This document shows positions 1 through 7,052 of a stretch of DNA of 7,052 nt, piece after piece. Where the stretch lies: contig JAHFCY010000178.1 in the NCBI GenBank assembly GCA_023249255.1, positions 1 to 7,052 of the forward strand, given 5' to 3'. Made by a program: the position numbers and the translations under genes. Positions within the stretch are counted from its first letter, which is position 1. Every line of letters begins with the position of its first letter. Below the pieces are notes generated by a model. The model was not told the origin of the DNA. It was given only the letters and a program-made list of their open reading frames with translations, and made no database searches. The stretch is from Candidatus Lindowiibacteriota bacterium. Lineage in GTDB: Bacteria; Lindowbacteria; 2-12-FULL-62-27.

Positions 1-1260
1 ATCGTACACCGGAGCTTGCTGTTTCACATGCGTCGTCTGCGGAATCCGCTCGTTCGGATAAAACGCGAGCGTACATCCGCTCGCACATCCCGGCGTCGAC
101 GACGGAATGTACATCCAGAATCCAGCCCACGGCTTCAACTGGACGGTCGTGTCGTAGGTGGTGAAACTGCCGGACACGGCTGTCGACGGCCCGAAAATGT
201 ATCCGCCGCCCGCGGACTCTTTGCGCCAGTATAATTTCGTGTGATAGTTCGACGTGTCGAGCGACCCCATCGGCACGGCATGGAGAGATGTGTCGGCCGC
301 GTTCGTGTCGAGCCGCACGTCGAGGTTCCAGTCGATGTAATGCTCGCAGGGATTGCCGATCATGTTCCAGCCCTTGTAGACCCGTATCTGGTGCGGCGAA
401 TCCGAGGGCGAATAGCCGGCGGACAACCCGATTGCCGCGTTCGACCCTTTCATCAGGGCCCAATACGCCCGGCCCGCTTCGAAATTGCCGAATGAACCGG
501 CGGCGGAGTTGTTCGGCGATGCCTGGCCCGAGGGCGATTTATATTGAGAGAATGACGCGACGGCCGGCGCGTTGGGATCCCACCAGTAAACGATCATGCT
601 TCCAAGCCCCGCAGAACCGTTCACGGCGAGACCGTTCACACCCGAAGCCGGTTTCTCAAGCGGCGAGAACATCGTCCACTTGTCGGCGGGGACCGCCCGC
701 CTGTCCGTGTAGATGACGATGTGTTCATCGGTGCCGCGTCCGCTGGAGAGTGACGCCGTGATGACATACACGCCCTCTCCGCTTGACAGCGTCAGAGTCT
801 CGGTCACGCGTCCGTTGGCGTCGGAGGTTTCCGAGCCGGATCCGATCGATGAGCCTTCATATTCGATGTGAAAATTGACATCGGCGCCGGATGCCATGTC
901 GCCGGCGCGGGAGTCTTTCACATCGAGCAGGATGAGGACGGAATCTCCGTTGGAGATGACATCGTGCCGGCTGCTGATTAGAATGATTGAATCGCCGGAT
1001 TTGGATGCGGCGGCGGAAGAAGCATTGCGCTGTCGGAGAAATCCCATCTTGAGCGTGTACGACGCGCTGGAAGAAGTGTCCGTTCCCTGCTGGCCGACGG
1101 ATGAGTGGAGGATATAACCGGTCGATGATGATGTATCTCCGCCGGTGGAGATGACGTCAGCCGGCAATTTGTAATTGACTGAAGTGATAAGAGCATATGC
1201 CAGGATGGACATCAACACGATACCTACGAACGCGGCCACCACAACTCGGTTTCGGTTCAT
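1..1260 (-). CDS. Secreted modular protein with Ig-like domain, 3' end outside window (partial)
   Basis: The frame is open from an ATG at 1260 to the window edge, giving 420 codons without a stop. The start is supported by AAGGGA six bases upstream. Residues 1-28 form a signal peptide or anchor: basic NRNR, a long hydrophobic stretch, and a possible AYA cleavage site at 21-23. Residues 35-75 hold a D-x4-GG...SSS...Y-x-L...S-x-GQ...S-x-SY-x-L-x-x-GF pattern that I know from many predicted exported proteins. Residues 92-185 look like a bacterial Ig-like fold of the invasin type (DANG turn near 147-150, then alternating strands). The rest is rich in W, G, S and N, with GWNMIGNP and WAGFWMY motifs, and has Cys in PGCASGC near the visible end. 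The role is unknown; a cell-surface or extracellular structural protein is inferred. It lies 276 bases downstream of the respiratory operon and is probably separate from it. Confidence 0.8.
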   Translation of the reverse strand, partial: MNRNRVVVAAFVGIVLMSILAYALITSVNYKLPADVISTGGDTSSSTGYILHSSVGQQGTDTSSSASYTLKMGFLRQRNASSAAASKSGDSIILISSRHDVISNGDSVLILLDVKDSRAGDMASGADVNFHIEYEGSSIGSGSETSDANGRVTETLTLSSGEGVYVITASLSSGRGTDEHIVIYTDRRAVPADKWTMFSPLEKPASGVNGLAVNGSAGLGSMIVYWWDPNAPAVASFSQYKSPSGQASPNNSAAGSFGNFEAGRAYWALMKGSNAAIGLSAGYSPSDSPHQIRVYKGWNMIGNPCEHYIDWNLDVRLDTNAADTSLHAVPMGSLDTSNYHTKLYWRKESAGGGYIFGPSTAVSGSFTTYDTTVQLKPWAGFWMYIPSSTPGCASGCTLAFYPNERIPQTTHVKQQAPVYD

Positions 1261-1266
1261 TGGCGA

Positions 1267-1272
1267 TCCCTT
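1267..1272 (-). promoter_or_regulatory. Ribosome binding site of the secreted protein gene
   Basis: On the minus strand AAGGGA lies six bases before the ATG at 1260, a good Shine-Dalgarno match at good spacing. It fixes the start of the secreted protein, placing a basic n-region directly before the hydrophobic core. I found no convincing -10/-35 pair for this gene in 1261-1536. A TTGACA at 1515-1520 (minus) has no acceptable -10 at 16-18 bases. Confidence 0.6.
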
Positions 1273-1416
1273 CGAAATACAGAAGTCATAACGTCAGACA
1301 AGAACCCAAAACAAGCCCGGCCCGTGTAAATCGTATGCGAGTCTACGTTACCGAACGATCAGTGTTCACCTGCGAAGGACATAAATCAATCCAATGAAAA
1401 CATGTATTTTTAGTGA

Positions 1417-1442
1417 AAAATTCGCCTTCTATCACGAATTTT
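1417..1442. terminator. AT-rich perfect inverted repeat, possible weak terminator or operator
   Basis: AAAATTCG (1417-1424) and CGAATTTT (1435-1442) are perfect reverse complements separated by a 10-base loop. On the minus strand the stem ends in a T run (CGAATTTTT), as a rho-independent terminator would, and it lies about 95 bases after the stop of the CydA-cytochrome c gene. The stem has only two G:C pairs, so as a terminator it would be weak. It could instead be a protein-binding palindrome upstream of the secreted protein gene. It is the only clear secondary-structure signal in this gap. Confidence 0.35.
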
Positions 1443-1536
1443 ACGTGCCGGCGGATCGGAGATGCCCACGGGGATGTAAGGAATTTTGATTTTGCATGGC
1501 CGTCTTGCATTGATTGTCAAACCGTAATTCTGCGAA

Positions 1537-2859
1537 TCAATGTGACGCCGGCGCGGCCGCGACCTCCATGCCGAGATAATGCGCGAGCGACGCCAGTTCC
1601 GTGTCGGAGCCGACAACGGGGGGCATGATGTGGCGGTAGGGATTTTTGTCGCCGGGGCGCATGATGCGCAGGAGGTTCAGGATTGATTTCTCGTCCCGGC
1701 CTTTCAGAAATTCCCGGAGGGGGCGATAGCCGTCCAGCGTGTGGCAACTTCGGCATTCCGTGCGAAACATCGCTTCGCCGTCGCTTTCGCCGGCGCGGCG
1801 CCAGTGAATCTTCGGCACGATCGGTCTTTCCGCGTCTTCCATCGTCTGCGCGTCAGCGGCCAGTACGCCGTTGGAGTACATCACCTGCCCGATGACATAC
1901 GGCTTGCGCAGGACTTCGCGCGTCCACTCGCCGGCTCCGGTCACAAAAAGCGCCGACAGCATCAAAAATACGATCTTGCCCGTCGTGAATTCATCCGGGT
2001 TTGCGTAGGCGCCGAAGTAAATCATCAATCCCATCGTGCAGGTGAAGAAAACCGTGAGCATCGATATCCGGGTGAGGATCGCGAGGTTTCCGCGCGCAAA
2101 TCCCGACACGCCGCTGTAGAGCATCGCCTGCTGGGCTTCCGGGAGTTTGAAATAATACCAGGCCATCCCGAAAATCATGAGGACAAACGTCGGAATAAAC
2201 CACCGTGCGGAATATTGCAGCATGTGCGTCCGCATGCCGTGCGTCTTGGGCATCCGCGACGCGGTGATCAGGCCGTAGAGGCCGGCCAATGCGAGGCACA
2301 CGAGAAATCGCATCATGAGCGACGGCCAGTAGGTCGGGTTGAACATCCCCGACCAGAAACTGTGGTCCTGGACCCAGTTTCCCGGCGACAGCATGAACGT
2401 CAAAATGCCGTTGATCGTCACCAGCGTCATGAGAGACGTGAACATGTAGGCCCAGCCGACCATCATGTGGGTACGGGGCGAGAGCGTCTTCCAGCCGTAA
2501 TAGTAGACGACGAGCGAAAGAACTTCGAGGAAAAACCAGACCCATTCGATGGTCCAGGCAAGAACGAAATTTCGAATGAGAAACGCCGTGGCGTCCGGAT
2601 TCACCAGACCAATCGCAAACCAGATGCCGATGCCGAACATCGCGCCGACGACGGACGTGAGGATCACAAAAAATCTGGAATGCGCGTGGCAGTACTCGAG
2701 CATCTCGGCATCTCCCCGCTTTCGGGCGAGATACTCCGTCACCGGCAAAAAGACTCCGCCGCCGACCGCAAATTGCGAAATGAACACGTGGCTGACAGCA
2801 ATGAGACCAATCACCCCGGGCCCGCCGACTCCCTCGATCACCCACTGCGGATAATTCAT
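1537..2859 (-). CDS. CydA-like (cytochrome bd superfamily) subunit with fused C-terminal cytochrome c
   Basis: This 440-residue protein has about eight transmembrane helices (14-40, 63-86, 95-121, 132-157, 179-200, 218-237, 259-283, 294-312) and a soluble tail. Helix 1 carries H24, matching the haem-ligand His19 of E. coli CydA. Helix 3 has E105 and E112 in an IE...FFLE block like the Glu99/Glu107 region. GEWTREVLRKPY (310-321) resembles the conserved helix-8 Glu/Arg region around Glu445 and Arg448. The loop between helices 6 and 7 is only about 20 residues, so the quinol-binding Q-loop is absent. Helix 9 is also absent. The tail has one c-type haem site, CRSCH (369-373), with M412 in an MPP motif as probable sixth ligand. 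The ATG at 2859 overlaps the cytochrome b stop as ATGA; the frame stays open upstream only inside the cytochrome b gene. Role inferred: terminal haem subunit taking electrons via its own cytochrome c, probably to O2. Confidence 0.85.
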   Translation of the reverse strand: MNYPQWVIEGVGGPGVIGLIAVSHVFISQFAVGGGVFLPVTEYLARKRGDAEMLEYCHAHSRFFVILTSVVGAMFGIGIWFAIGLVNPDATAFLIRNFVLAWTIEWVWFFLEVLSLVVYYYGWKTLSPRTHMMVGWAYMFTSLMTLVTINGILTFMLSPGNWVQDHSFWSGMFNPTYWPSLMMRFLVCLALAGLYGLITASRMPKTHGMRTHMLQYSARWFIPTFVLMIFGMAWYYFKLPEAQQAMLYSGVSGFARGNLAILTRISMLTVFFTCTMGLMIYFGAYANPDEFTTGKIVFLMLSALFVTGAGEWTREVLRKPYVIGQVMYSNGVLAADAQTMEDAERPIVPKIHWRRAGESDGEAMFRTECRSCHTLDGYRPLREFLKGRDEKSILNLLRIMRPGDKNPYRHIMPPVVGSDTELASLAHYLGMEVAAAPASH

Positions 2860-3932
2860 ACCGGTTTTGCCACGTAGCCCCAGATGGTGAAACTGATCAG
2901 CCAGACAATCCCCGCAAATCCGATATAAGCCGCAATTTTGCCGCGGCGGCCCGTCGCTGTTGCCGGATTCCAGATCGGGACGGTGGCCCAGATGGCTCCC
3001 GCAATGCCAAACAGCATATTGCCGAACAACTCGCCATTGATGGGACCAACCTCCGCGGGCATGAGTTTCAGGAGTTGAAACATCGCCATGAAATACCACT
3101 CGGGCTTGATCCCTTTGGGCGCCGGCGCAAGGGGATCGGCCTCACCGCCAAGCGGCCACGGAAATAACGCGGCCAGAACGGCAAGCAAATTCAGCGCGAT
3201 GAGCCAGACGTAGAGATCGCTGAGGATAAAATTCGGGAAAAAAGGCACGCGGCCATACTTGCCGGATTTTTCGATTCCCTCCGGAATTTTGTTGCCGTGA
3301 ATCTGTAGGAAAAAAAGATGAGCGCCCAGAAGCGCCATGAAAATCCACGGGATGATCACGACATGCAAAGCAAACATGCGCTGAATCGTCAGCCCGCCCA
3401 TCCCCGGACCGCCGCGCAGAATGTTCGCCACGTACGATCCGCCGGGGACGGTTTCCATGATCTGAATACCAATTTTTGTCGCGAAAAAGGCCATGTCGTC
3501 CCAGACCAGACAGTAGCCGGTAAATCCCAACCCCATGCAAAGTCCCAGGAGCCCCAGCCCCGTGAACCACGTCAGCTCGCGGGGTTTTTGATAGGCCTTC
3601 ATAAAGTAGACGGAGAACATGTGAATGATGACGGCCACCAGCATGAGGTTCGCCGCCCAGGAATGGATCGAACGGATCAGCCAGCCAAAATCGACTTTCG
3701 TGACGATCCGCAGAACCGATGCGTGACTGCTCTCAAGGCCCGGCTGGTATTGGAACAGAAGCACCATGCCGGTAAAAACAAGGAGGATGAAAAAGAACAG
3801 CGAAATTCCGCCGAAGTAGTACCAGAAATCCTGCTTGTGCTCGGGCACCGTCTTGTGCGCGGAGAGATCCTTGAACGCCTTGACCGGCAATCGCTCCTCG
3901 ACAAACCGGGTGATCCAGTCCTTGATGTTCAT
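2856..3932 (-). CDS. Cytochrome b, b6/subunit-IV fusion type, of a Rieske/cytochrome b complex
   Basis: This 358-residue membrane protein is the quinol-oxidising, proton-translocating subunit of a bc/b6f-like complex. The N-terminal four helices carry the bis-His haem ligands H90/H104 and H190/H205. The second pair is separated by 14 residues, as in b6-type proteins. The C-terminal part adds three helices (about 242-262, 300-318, 332-352) like subunit IV, preceded by the Qo-site motif PEWY at 277-280. It is thus a b6 plus subunit IV fusion. The Cys that binds the extra haem ci in b6 and Firmicutes QcrB is replaced: the YCLGG region reads YYFGG with Y39, so that haem is probably absent. The ATG follows the Rieske stop by three bases with no clear Shine-Dalgarno, suggesting coupled translation. 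The gene ends in an ATGA overlap with the CydA-like gene. Confidence 0.95.
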   Translation of the reverse strand: MNIKDWITRFVEERLPVKAFKDLSAHKTVPEHKQDFWYYFGGISLFFFILLVFTGMVLLFQYQPGLESSHASVLRIVTKVDFGWLIRSIHSWAANLMLVAVIIHMFSVYFMKAYQKPRELTWFTGLGLLGLCMGLGFTGYCLVWDDMAFFATKIGIQIMETVPGGSYVANILRGGPGMGGLTIQRMFALHVVIIPWIFMALLGAHLFFLQIHGNKIPEGIEKSGKYGRVPFFPNFILSDLYVWLIALNLLAVLAALFPWPLGGEADPLAPAPKGIKPEWYFMAMFQLLKLMPAEVGPINGELFGNMLFGIAGAIWATVPIWNPATATGRRGKIAAYIGFAGIVWLISFTIWGYVAKPV

Positions 3933-3935
3933 CGG

Positions 3936-4370
3936 TCAGTTTTTGCTGACATAGAATCCGTCGGCCTTTTCTTCAAGTTTCAACTGCGTCAACGGCGCCG
4001 GCGGCGGGCCGGAGATGTTCGCCCCGGTGCTGGCATCGTAGCGTCCGCCGTGGCATGCGCAGGCGATGCGGTCTTCCTCTTTGCTGTAGTCGACCGTGCA
4101 TCCGAGGTGCATGCACGTCGCCGTGAGCGCGTGAACCGTGCCGTCCATCCGGCGGATGAGGATGCCGGGTTTGGATCCGAATTTGAATATTTTCGATGTC
4201 CCTGGTTCCGGAACCACATTTTTCTCCAACTTGATCTGCGATACTTTCTCCTCCGTCTCTCCCTCGCCGCTCTGCAGGAATTTCACGAGAGGCACAGCGA
4301 GGACCAGTCCGTACAGGCCCGTCACTCCCTTTAACACCCAGTCCAGCCAGTGACGCCGATTCATGTTCAC
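3936..4370 (-). CDS. Rieske [2Fe-2S] iron-sulfur protein
   Basis: This short (144-residue) Rieske protein takes electrons from quinol at the Qo site of the cytochrome b encoded next to it. Residues 4-32 form an N-terminal anchor with a twin-arginine-like start (NRRHWLDW then a hydrophobic helix). That fits Tat export with the cluster domain outside the membrane. The cluster box 1 is CMHLGC (86-91) and box 2 CACHGG (104-109): C86, H88, C104 and H107 should bind the cluster, and C91-C106 should form the stabilising disulfide. GPPPAPL (121-127) is the family's Pro loop. I chose GTG at 4370 because AAGGAGGGG lies upstream at a workable distance (10 bases from AGGAGG) and the GTGA overlaps the previous stop. 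The ATG at 4364 would be 16 bases away and gives a protein two residues shorter. Confidence 0.93.
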   Translation of the reverse strand: MNMNRRHWLDWVLKGVTGLYGLVLAVPLVKFLQSGEGETEEKVSQIKLEKNVVPEPGTSKIFKFGSKPGILIRRMDGTVHALTATCMHLGCTVDYSKEEDRIACACHGGRYDASTGANISGPPPAPLTQLKLEEKADGFYVSKN

Positions 4371-5362
4371 AGCGCAATCCCCTCCTTGCGAACGACACGC
4401 CACAGCCACAGGCCCAGCACGACGAACAACAACAGCGCGCCGTATACGGCCGCGATGACTGAATGCTGGATCCGGATCGGAATGGCCATGAAATTGTGGT
4501 AGTCGCTGATGAGCGCCTCGCGGATGAAGTGCCGCGTCAAAACTTTCGACAGCGCGTCAATCGACAGGGCCGCCATCACGGTCACCGAACACCGGATCTT
4601 GCCGGTCGAATCGACGCCGAATAAACCGACCAGCGTCAAAAGCCCGAACGACAACCATTGGAACATTTTTTGGCTGGTGGAGAGGGGATAACCGATGTGC
4701 GTCATCAGAAGCCCAAACGCGGCGCCGCTGACGAGGATGCCCGCAAAAAAGAATTGACGAAACCGTTCCGTCCAGAGCCAGCCCATCCAGCACAGCGCCG
4801 GCCCGAGGACCCACGCCCAGCGAAGAATGGCCTCCGAACTGCGCGGATAGAGATGCAGGCCGCCGACCGTCTGATAATTTTCGGCCCATCCGCCCGGGTG
4901 GATCATCCACGACATCACGTTCGAATAAATGAAACCGATGGTGAGAATACCGAGCGCCGCGAGTAAACTCGCCCAGCGAGACCAGTCGAGCCGGCTGGTG
5001 TACCGCGCGAAATAGACGAGCCCGTAGGAAGCCATCAGCATGAAAACGACCGACAGCCAGGTCCCGGCCATCATGAGCGACCCCGAATAGAAAAACGAGC
5101 CGTAGAGAGATTGGACAACCAGAAGGGGCGGGATTCCGAAGTTAATCAGAAACGCGACGAGGATCGGCGCGCGCGACAAAACAACCTGCGCGTGGTTGCG
5201 GGAAAGCCCGCCGACCAGCACGCTCGCCAGCGTCGATTGGACCAGGACGAAATGGACGGCAAGCGTAATGAGACCAATGACGAGGAGAAATTGCGGCCAG
5301 ATCGGAAGCGGGATCGGCGGAGCTGCGGGAATGAAAACGCCGCCCGTCACCGCACAACCCAC
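4367..5362 (-). CDS. Nine-helix membrane protein, possible CydA'-like partner subunit
   Basis: This 331-residue first gene of the operon has about nine predicted transmembrane helices (near 23-52, 66-88, 97-120, 131-153, 180-198, 204-222, 233-250, 257-275, 300-324) and a basic C-terminal tail. I do not recognise a named family. By eye it resembles the CydA-like subunit of the same operon. Helix 1 has H37-x4-Q42 (H24-x4-Q29 there), followed by an SR-initiated helix 2. TRHFIR (276-281) after helix 8 matches TREVLR. It lacks equivalents of the helix-3 glutamates and the helix-8 Glu, so it is unlikely to hold the full catalytic site. An accessory paralogue replacing CydB is inferred. The start is uncertain: GTG at 5362 has an in-frame stop seven codons upstream and no good Shine-Dalgarno; GTG at 5350 is an alternative. 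The stop overlaps the Rieske GTG. Confidence 0.75.
   Translation of the reverse strand: MGCAVTGGVFIPAAPPIPLPIWPQFLLVIGLITLAVHFVLVQSTLASVLVGGLSRNHAQVVLSRAPILVAFLINFGIPPLLVVQSLYGSFFYSGSLMMAGTWLSVVFMLMASYGLVYFARYTSRLDWSRWASLLAALGILTIGFIYSNVMSWMIHPGGWAENYQTVGGLHLYPRSSEAILRWAWVLGPALCWMGWLWTERFRQFFFAGILVSGAAFGLLMTHIGYPLSTSQKMFQWLSFGLLTLVGLFGVDSTGKIRCSVTVMAALSIDALSKVLTRHFIREALISDYHNFMAIPIRIQHSVIAAVYGALLLFVVLGLWLWRVVRKEGIAL
4379..4387 (-). promoter_or_regulatory. Strong ribosome binding site of the Rieske gene
   Basis: Minus-strand AAGGAGGGG is the strongest Shine-Dalgarno match in the operon. It lies inside the last codons of the upstream gene. Its AGGAGG core is 10 bases from the GTG at 4370 and 16 from the ATG at 4364, so it favours the GTG start. 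It may make Rieske translation partly independent of the upstream gene. Confidence 0.6.
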
Positions 5363-5407
5363 CCGCAGAGGTTGACACGTTCAGTCTGTACCCGTCGCAT
5401 GCGCCGA

Positions 5408-5436
5408 AACATACCTACAACTCTTCACTATGGCAA
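5408..5436 (-). promoter_or_regulatory. Sigma-70-like promoter of the respiratory operon
   Basis: On the minus strand, TTGCCA (5431-5436, five of six to TTGACA) is followed after exactly 17 bases by TATGTT (5408-5413, four of six to TATAAT). Transcription would begin near 5401 and give a leader of about 38 bases before the GTG at 5362. The leader includes a GCATGC palindrome around its start (5398-5403) but no strong ribosome binding site. Confidence 0.5.
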
Positions 5437-5437
5437 G

Positions 5438-5466
5438 TTGTTTTTTGGAAAATTCGAAAGTATAGT
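5438..5466 (+). promoter_or_regulatory. ndh: Sigma-70-like promoter of the NDH-2 fusion gene, near-leaderless
   Basis: TTGTTT (5438-5443, three of six matches) and TATAGT (5461-5466, five of six) are spaced by 17 bases. A start about seven bases past the -10 would fall near 5473, only some six bases before the ATG at 5479. That would leave almost no leader and fits the lack of a good Shine-Dalgarno there. A second possible -35, TTGACA at 5372-5377, has only a three-of-six TCGCAT -10 at 17 bases and is weaker. Confidence 0.45.
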
Positions 5467-5478
5467 GAGTGCATCGGC

Positions 5479-7052
5479 ATGAGCACAAATGGACGGAAAC
5501 AGGTTGTCATCCTCGGCGGGGGTTTCGGCGGAGTCTATACTGCGATCCAGCTTGAAAAATTCCTCGGGTCAAATCCGGATTTCGACATCCACCTGGTCAA
5601 TCACGAAAATTATTTCGTCTTCCAGCCGATGCTGGCTGAAGTGATCTCGGGAAGCATCGGGATCATGGATGCCGTGACGCCCATCGCACAGCTTCTGAAA
5701 AAAACAAAAATTCATGTCCGGGACGTCGAGCAGATCGATTTGAAAGAAAAACTGGTCTACACCAGCCCCGGATTCGTGCCCAAACCCCACATTTTGCCGT
5801 ACGACCATCTGGTGATCGCGATGGGGAAGGTCACGCATTTCCGGGGAATGCCGGGGATGCCCGAGCACGCGATTCCGTTCAAAAATCTGGGTGACGCGCT
5901 GTATATCCGCAATCACACCATCCACGCCGTCGAGGAGGCCGACATCGAGGAGGATCCGAAACTGCGGCGGGAACTGTTGACGTTCGTCATCGCCGGCGGC
6001 GGTTTTTCCGGCGTGGAAGCCGCGGCTGACCTGAACAGTTTCCTTCGGCACACGGCGCAACACCACTACGAGCGGGTGGCGCCTGAAGACATCCGGGTGA
6101 TTCTCCTGCACGCGCAGGACAGGATTTTGCCGGAATTGTCACAGGAACTCGGGCGGTTTGCCCAGAGGGTCATCCAAAAACAGGGAGTTGAAATCAGGTT
6201 CAATACAAGGTTGGCGGCGGCAACGAAAACGGAAGCCATTCTTTCCAATGGCGAGCGAATCCCGACCCGGACGCTGATCTCGACCGTGCCGGCGTCGTCC
6301 AATCCCATCATCGAAAAATTGGATATTCCCAAAGACAGAGGACACATCAAGGCCTCGCTGGAAATGCAGGTCGAGGGAAGCGACCACGTCTGGGCCCTGG
6401 GCGACTGCGCCGTCATCCCGCATCCGAGCGGCAAGGGATTTTGTCCGCCGACTGCGCAGTTCGGGATGCGCCAGGGTCCCATCGCGGCGCACAACATCGT
6501 TGCGTCGATCCGCGGCGGATCCCGAAAAAAATTCGGGTTCAAGGGCCTCGGGTCCATGTGTTCCCTTGGGCATCAGAGTGGCGTTGCGGAGATCATGGGA
6601 CTTCATTTTTCCGGAATATTGGCGTGGCTGATGTGGCGGGTGATCTATCTTTCCAAACTGCCCGGTCTCGACCGCAAAGTCAAAGTCGCCATCGCGTGGA
6701 TTCTCGACTTCTTCTTTCCGCCCGCCCTCGTCCAGCTCAAATTGTTCGGACACAAGGCCGTCAAACAGGAGCATTACGAACCCGGCGAGGAGGGCTTCCA
6801 CCAGGGGGATCTTGGCGACCGGATCTACATCATGATCTCCGGCAAGTCCCGCGTGCTGGTGACCGATCATGATGGGAACGAAAAAACTCTGGCGGAACTC
6901 GGCCCCGGCGAGTATTTCGGCGAGATGGCCCTCCTCAACAAGACCACACGCGGCGCGAGTGTCCGGTGCATCGAGCCGATGGACGTGTTGTGTCTCAGGA
7001 AACAGGAATTCGGCGCCCTCGCAACCCATCTGCCCGATCTGCGCGCCAGCTT
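5479..7052 (+). CDS. ndh: Type II NAD(P)H:quinone dehydrogenase fused to a cyclic-nucleotide-binding domain (3' partial)
   Basis: 524 codons are visible before the window ends. The single-subunit flavoenzyme passes electrons from NAD(P)H to membrane quinone without pumping protons. FAD-binding GGGFGG is at 13-18, the NENYF-like HENYFVFQP block near 42-50, the second dinucleotide fold GGGFSGVE at 173-180, the FAD-contacting ALGDC at 306-310 and the quinone-side TAQFGMRQG from 325. Residues 374-422 form the amphipathic and hydrophobic C-terminal membrane anchor usual for NDH-2. From about 428 a cyclic-nucleotide-binding fold is added, with its phosphate cassette FGEMALL (480-486) and the phosphate-binding R491 both intact. 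Whether cAMP, cGMP or nothing binds is unknown. The end of the second-fold strand carries H211 where a Glu is common in NADH-specific members, so cofactor preference is open. The gene is divergent from the respiratory operon and could supply its quinol. Confidence 0.92.
   Translation, partial: MSTNGRKQVVILGGGFGGVYTAIQLEKFLGSNPDFDIHLVNHENYFVFQPMLAEVISGSIGIMDAVTPIAQLLKKTKIHVRDVEQIDLKEKLVYTSPGFVPKPHILPYDHLVIAMGKVTHFRGMPGMPEHAIPFKNLGDALYIRNHTIHAVEEADIEEDPKLRRELLTFVIAGGGFSGVEAAADLNSFLRHTAQHHYERVAPEDIRVILLHAQDRILPELSQELGRFAQRVIQKQGVEIRFNTRLAAATKTEAILSNGERIPTRTLISTVPASSNPIIEKLDIPKDRGHIKASLEMQVEGSDHVWALGDCAVIPHPSGKGFCPPTAQFGMRQGPIAAHNIVASIRGGSRKKFGFKGLGSMCSLGHQSGVAEIMGLHFSGILAWLMWRVIYLSKLPGLDRKVKVAIAWILDFFFPPALVQLKLFGHKAVKQEHYEPGEEGFHQGDLGDRIYIMISGKSRVLVTDHDGNEKTLAELGPGEYFGEMALLNKTTRGASVRCIEPMDVLCLRKQEFGALATHLPDLRAS

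Follow-up and report, generated by a model that had tools for sequence, protein, structure and literature searches.

The question raised by the locus described here is whether the quinol-oxidizing parts of a bc complex and the oxygen site of a bd oxidase can belong to one and the same enzyme. The locus is a four-gene operon of a Candidatus Lindowiibacteriota bacterium, embedded in a stretch of 7,052 nucleotides (contig JAHFCY010000178.1, positions 1 to 7,052; hereafter, the window). Its genes are read on the minus strand from position 5362 to position 1537 and encode, in this order, a paralogue of the bd-oxidase subunit CydA (referred to as CydA'), a Rieske protein, a cytochrome b, and a CydA-like subunit with a C-terminal cytochrome c domain (CydA-c). 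The gene set, its conservation and co-inheritance, and the ligands, fold and topology of its products were established in the analysis. The genetic linkage makes it very probable that the four proteins form one complex, and this complex is probably a dedicated quinol:O2 oxidoreductase, in which electrons would pass from the bc module through haem c to a bd-like di-haem site.

Organization and conservation of the four-gene unit

The four genes are tightly coupled: those of CydA' and the Rieske protein overlap by four nucleotides (4367-4370), three nucleotides separate the latter from the cytochrome b gene, and the cytochrome b and CydA-c genes share a four-nucleotide ATGA overlap (2856-2859), the CydA-c start being located at 2859, within a longer open reading frame listed from 3099. 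Pfam searches on the four products returned Cyt_bd_oxida_I together with a weak Cytochrome_CBB3 match (CxxCH), the N- and C-terminal domains of Cytochrome_B, and Rieske; no cytochrome c1/f gene is present within the operon.

A single-sequence scan of genome contigs had disclosed no relatives; the later, alignment-based scan of the GTDB species genomes returned at least 526, of which the best 80 were retained. All four genes are present in 73 of these best 80 loci, and in each of the 73 full clusters they maintain the same relative order (CydA', Rieske, cytochrome b, CydA-c) on one strand; several of the loci without the full set are interrupted by contig ends. Since the best 80 loci are the closest relatives, this fraction holds for the clade under study and not for the whole family. 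Their record titles bear about twelve phylum-level names, i.e., Lindowbacteria, Zixibacteria, Latescibacteria, Acidobacteria, Melainabacteria, Verrucomicrobia, Lentisphaerae, Armatimonadetes, Planctomycetes, Hydrogenedentes, Sumerlaeia, and Chlorobi, and the carriers include two cultured Acidobacteria, Bryocella elongata DSM 22489 and Geothrix rubra Red803. As for the Lindowbacteria, the genes were found in all three genomes of the collection, and one relative harbors the four-gene block in unchanged form; in the lindowbacterial locus L005 (5864-8658), two hypothetical genes (569 and 387 aa) are inserted between the Rieske and the cytochrome b genes. The flanks of the 73 clusters contain no fifth conserved gene, the most frequent other gene occurring in at most 11/73, and the idea of a missing fifth subunit was rejected on this basis.

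The bc-linked CydA-c sequences group together in a supported clade, within which three exceptions are nested, and the cytochromes b of the clusters join in a single clade (Shimodaira-Hasegawa-like approximate likelihood ratio test 97), from which the 26 other cytochromes b that these genomes encode are excluded. The patristic distances of the four protein trees are correlated as well (0.87-0.95, against a Mantel permutation maximum of 0.47); since this correlation comes partly from the shared host phylogeny, more weight attaches to the gene order and to the separate clade of the cluster cytochromes b. The earlier note on this DNA had described four tightly coupled genes joining bc parts to a bd-superfamily subunit, and had proposed their co-occurrence in relatives as a check; the overlaps and the short gap, the Pfam domains, and the adjacency of the genes in nearly all of the retained loci bear this description out.

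The CydA-like pair and the bc module

The AlphaFold2 (AF2) model of CydA-c (predicted local distance difference test, pLDDT, 79) matches CydA chains at VIA Z 27.8-29.6, with a root-mean-square deviation (rmsd) of 2.7-3.0 over 302-324 residues, the top match reaching Z 29.6 (rmsd 2.8-3.0 across 316-324 residues). In the alignments used for residue conservation, which comprise 74 sequences, H24, E105, E112, R184, R264, E311, R314, E315, R318, K319, P320, the CxxCH motif at 369-373, and M412 are invariant (74/74). A profile alignment pairs H24, E105 and E112 with H19, E99 and E107 of the Escherichia coli protein. As for the C-terminal half, the global profile alignment gave no pairing and shorter windows alone aligned: E315/R318 correspond to E445/R448 in a short profile match (E 3e-4 to 3e-3), with which the structural register agrees (model residue 332 corresponding to E. 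coli 462, an offset of 130).

The features by which canonical bd oxidases receive electrons from quinol were not found. In the profile alignment, the position equivalent to the b558 ligand H186 (183) is occupied by L, I, M or V, and the one equivalent to M393 (266, placed by motif only) by A, L, V or S; the loop between transmembrane helices 6 and 7 (TM6-TM7) has about 20 residues, and the E. coli Q-loop has no counterpart in it. A search with PF02322 (CydB) of the genome to which the window belongs and of its two lindowbacterial relatives gave no match, and in a survey of 38 host genomes based on family cut-offs CydB was detected in 17 and not found in 21, including all three Lindowbacteria. 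The identity with a canonical bd oxidase was rejected on these three grounds, and since b558 ligands, Q-loop and CydB are all missing, electrons should enter through haem c. The inner loops of CydA-c carry 1.8-3.7 lysines plus arginines and the outer ones 0-0.8; loops 1-2, 3-4, 5-6 and 7-8 are the positively charged, hence cytoplasmic, ones, which places the haem c domain in the periplasm, on the same side as the bd haems.

CydA' matched no family of Pfam or NCBIfam, pairwise BLASTP yielded no convincing homology, and a sequence search of the PDB gave no match. Its profile aligns with that of CydA-c (hhalign probability 98.3%, E 1.2e-14), and its AF2 model (pLDDT 81) resembles CydA/CydB chains at VIA Z 21-23, the next family, PsrC/ActF, reaching Z only 13-15; the possibility that CydA' is an unrelated membrane protein was ruled out by these two results. 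H37 and R181/R277 are kept in 73/74 sequences. Two CydA paralogues, CydA-c and CydA', are encoded together in all 73 full clusters, as in the pairs known as CydAA'. Both the paralogous partner and the lack of a separate c1/f, CydB or Q-loop had been read from the sequence beforehand; they hold, and neither the flanks nor the host survey disclosed an accompanying c1/f or CydB that is regularly present.

In the bc module, the Rieske protein possesses both cluster-binding boxes, with C86, H88, C104 and H107 invariant, and so are, in cytochrome b, the ligands of the two haems b (H90/H104 and H190/H205) and the PEWY motif (277-280). The nearest solved structures to this cytochrome b are those of cytochrome b6 (E 2.9e-46); an alignment by eye shows no cysteine at the position of b6 Cys35 (haem ci). 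The features of the operon are listed in Table 1.

Table 1. Position and evidence of the genes, motifs and residues of the four-gene operon (coordinates of the window; TM, transmembrane helices).
Feature	Position	Strand	Details	Evidence
CydA', CydA paralogue without active-site glutamates	4367..5362	-	331 aa; start possibly GTG 5350	hhalign and AF2
Rieske [2Fe-2S] protein	3936..4370	-	144 aa from GTG 4370, or 142 from ATG 4364	PF00355 E 7.3e-13
Rieske box 1, CMHLGC	4098..4115	-	residues 86-91	CxH...C invariant in 74
Rieske box 2, CACHG	4047..4061	-	residues 104-108	CxCH invariant in 74
Cytochrome b	2856..3932	-	358 aa; unsplit, b6-like	PF13631, PF00033, PF00032
Cytochrome b PEWY, quinol-oxidation (Qo) site motif	3093..3104	-	residues 277-280	invariant in 74
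CydA-c, CydA-like subunit with C-terminal cytochrome c domain	1537..2859	-	440 aa; 8 TM, N-out/C-out	PF01654 E 9e-13
CydA-c H24	2788..2790	-	equivalent of E. coli CydA H19, active-site haem ligand	profile alignment; invariant in 74
CydA-c E105 to E112	2524..2547	-	equivalents of E. coli E99 and E107	profile alignment; invariant in 74
CydA-c E315xxR318	1906..1917	-	equivalent of E. coli E445xxR448 (GRQPW region; haem b595 ligand)	short profile match and structural register; invariant in 74
CydA-c CRSCH	1741..1755	-	residues 369-373, covalent haem c site	invariant in 74
CydA-c M412	1624..1626	-	probable sixth haem c ligand	invariant in 74

The operon is flanked in the window by two further genes. 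The first (5479-7050, plus strand), divergent from the operon, encodes an NDH-2-like flavin adenine dinucleotide (FAD) oxidoreductase fused to a C-terminal domain binding cyclic nucleotide monophosphates (PF07992, PF22366, PF00027), and is also present in both lindowbacterial relatives (L005 and L006). The second (1-1260, minus strand) runs off the contig end and encodes a secreted or surface protein with Ig-like similarity (Big_1/invasin D3), whose N-terminal region weakly matches the pilus protein PamT of the candidate phyla radiation (CPR).

Proposed electron path and alternative explanations

In the scheme regarded here as probable, the Qo site of cytochrome b would oxidize quinol, sending one electron to the Rieske cluster and recycling the other through haems bL and bH in a Q-cycle, and the Rieske cluster would then reduce the fused haem c domain that the CydA-like subunit exposes to the periplasm. 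Since this domain is located on the side of the bd haems, it would occupy both the place of the b558/Q-loop feed and that of c1/f as Rieske acceptor; a single fused haem c would replace the c1/f of the bc module as well as haem b558 and the Q-loop of the bd module. From haem c, electrons would reach the two-haem bd-type site (H24, E105, E112, E315, R318), where O2 would be reduced with cytoplasmic protons, while CydA' would replace CydB structurally and form the other membrane half. Per electron, a Q-cycle contributes roughly one charge on top of the one moved at the bd site, and the complex might move about two charges per electron, compared with about one for an ordinary bd oxidase. The acceptor (O2), the haem contents and the charge stoichiometry are those that we infer; residue conservation and topology fit the path from quinol through cytochrome b/Rieske and cytochrome c to the bd-like haems, which the earlier note had drawn.

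Some observations weigh against this scheme. The register of the C-terminal ligands consists of a short, weak profile match and a structural range rather than of full residue pairs. Haem-copper oxidases above the family cut-off were detected in 34 of the 38 surveyed hosts, so that few hosts have no candidate oxidase besides the cluster. Lastly, in two Caenarcaniphilales-type genomes, whose loci L060 and L065 share 93-96% DNA identity in this region, L060 is devoid of exactly the Rieske and cytochrome b genes (L060 3275-3313 corresponding to L065 5453-6985). Either a natural deletion or a fault of the assembly might account for the gap; since CydA' and CydA-c appear to be retained in L060 after clean removal of the bc genes, the bond between the two modules is not absolute.

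The alternative that survives best, although unlikely, is a complex III whose CydA-c and CydA' are mere membrane-anchored substitutes of c1, haem c delivering electrons to a soluble cytochrome c and, from there, to a separate haem-copper oxidase. The frequency of such oxidases among the hosts speaks in its favor, as does the fact that in some of them (e.g., G149, G158, G167, G175) the cytochrome b of the cluster is the only one found. Nevertheless, a mere anchor would need neither the ligands of the di-haem site nor the glutamates of the bd proton path, all of which are invariant; moreover, CydA-c/CydA' pairs exist without bc genes. In the genome of the window, which contains three haem-copper oxidases, the aa3-type one adjoins multihaem c, Rieske and cytochrome b genes of its own (names assigned by eye apart from the Pfam matches), so the cluster is not needed to feed that oxidase. 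In the 7-Mb genome of a member of Hydrogenedentes (G178; completeness not stated), neither a haem-copper oxidase nor CydB was matched though the cluster is present, which is thus its only visible candidate. These host data weaken the idea that the cluster supplies another oxidase, but less so for the genomes with one cytochrome b.

It is quite unlikely that the complex exists as proposed but serves mainly an acceptor other than respiratory O2, such as nitric oxide (NO), peroxide or another small oxidant, or acts in protective O2 scavenging. Canonical bd oxidases also handle NO and peroxide (PMC10839748), most hosts already possess other oxidases, and a gene assigned by eye to the Rrf2-type regulators, a family with NO and redox sensors, is located upstream of 7/73 clusters (e.g., L049 3371-3916). 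The active-site residues, however, equal those of O2-reducing CydA, and no NO- or peroxide-specific genes are conserved near the 73 clusters.

A reverse flow, in which a high-potential donor would reduce quinone via haem c, appears very improbable. For bd-like proteins of nitrite oxidizers, i.e., some from Nitrospira/Nitrospina, electron flow in reverse has been put forward (PMC3578206, PMC6606698), but the hosts of the present operon include heterotrophic Acidobacteria and Melainabacteria, and no gene for nitrite oxidoreductase or another donor is conserved near the 73 clusters. Finally, that the four genes are adjacent by chance, or merely co-regulated without a common complex, is hardly credible and was rejected: CydA-c does occur without bc genes in L060 and in the Caenarcanales loci L040 and L054, but the invariant order and strand of all 73 complete clusters, the dedicated cytochrome b clade and the congruent trees speak against it.

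Origin, known systems and significance

Most of the relatives at greater distance (about 30-40% identity) consist of CydA-c and CydA' alone, as pairs without bc genes, which marks the pair as a module of its own. The number of CxxCH motifs in the stand-alone CydA-c sequences ranges from one to three, except for a fusion with eight of them, an 856-aa multihaem CydA-like protein paired with CydA' (L029 7160-9730). Plasmid-borne pairs were observed in Thermus thermophilus and Agrobacterium (L170 5998-8564 and L171 5941-8504), annotated as 'cytochrome c' and 'hypothetical protein' or 'cytochrome C'. On the basal branches of the bc-linked clade, two genomes (G054 and G008) show the order (Rieske-)cytochrome b-CydA-c-CydA'. 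A plausible history is that bc genes were joined onto a pre-existing CydA-c/CydA' pair.

The products resemble several known systems in part. With canonical CydAB (the qOR families) they share the CydA fold (Z about 29) and the equivalents of H19/E99/E107/E445/R448; they differ from it in the absence of Q-loop, b558 ligands and CydB, in the fused c-type haem and in the presence of bc genes in the operon. With cytochrome b6f/bc1 they share a b6-like cytochrome b with four histidines and PEWY, and a Rieske protein with both boxes; unlike these complexes, they include no cytochrome f or c1, and (by eye) the position of b6 Cys35 is not a cysteine. Since some defining features of the canonical bd oxidase and some of the bc complex are lacking, the system was classed as neither, and would work like both joined. 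An alternative complex III was rejected too, no Act-type genes being present in the operon and the structural resemblance of the models to ActC/ActF/PsrC (Z 13-19) lying well below that to bd subunits.

Closer counterparts are OR-C and OR-N, groups of the bd superfamily without a quinol site, whose CydAA' pairs are thought to use cytochrome c (PMC10839748, PMC12342949, PMC13189123). The absence of Q-loop and b558 ligands together with a fused CxxCH motif would place CydA-c on this branch, as judged by likeness to published descriptions; the presumed cytochrome c donor and the two paired CydA paralogues are common to both. In the accessible parts of these sources, OR-C/OR-N are described as CydAA' pairs, some beside alternative complex III, whereas here the Rieske and cytochrome b genes belong to one unit with the pair. 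The CIII_1 region of Nitrospira moscoviensis likewise combines the bc core genes for Rieske and cytochrome b with bd-like proteins (bd-like_1 and bd-like_2), and a III-IV supercomplex has been proposed (PMC6606698); that region, by its description, is larger and contains several cytochromes c and a nitrite oxidoreductase subunit, and is not a compact CydA'-Rieske-cytochrome b-CydA-c operon. A CydA homologue of cable bacteria, a proposed O2 reductase, also bears a fused periplasmic cytochrome c domain, but has not been reported as joined to the Rieske/cytochrome b genes of its host (PMC13047784). The actinobacterial bcc-aa3 supercomplex likewise couples quinol oxidation to O2 reduction through a tethered c haem, with no mobile cytochrome c; in the present case the terminal site is bd-like rather than haem-copper, and the oxidase side is the one that bears the fused c haem.

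A 'complex III/IV combination' has been reported in Melainabacteria (PMC6349859). In Obscuribacter phosphatis, a cbb3-type gene is located beside two unusual, divergent cytochrome b genes (L130; G170:C1:832000-850000), about 1.8 Mb from the four-gene cluster; since this locus lies apart from the cluster, the report may describe a different locus. The four-gene unit was not found described in the accessible literature, and the classification of Murali, Gennis and Hemp (2021) may already include it, so that the priority of description is uncertain.

There is about an even chance that the operon represents a distinct enzyme class, i.e., a four-subunit bc-bd quinol oxidase with a Q-cycle, a bd-type O2 site and a fused haem c, widespread in at least a dozen phyla, which would have about twice the charge yield of an ordinary bd oxidase and would require no haem-copper oxidase. 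The bd oxidases are regarded as low-yield enzymes, as quinol electrons pass straight to the oxygen site; if the proposed scheme is true, a Q-cycle has been placed before that site, and more energy would be obtained without copper or a mobile cytochrome c. The finding bears on the open question of how the bd-family proteins that do not use quinol are supplied with electrons, a question which is directly testable, since two cultured strains carry the operon. It would also disclose a hidden respiratory branch in Acidobacteria, Verrucomicrobia, Armatimonadota, several candidate phyla, and Melainabacteria, the sisters of the photosynthetic cyanobacteria, in all of which the parts of the operon carry generic names or none.

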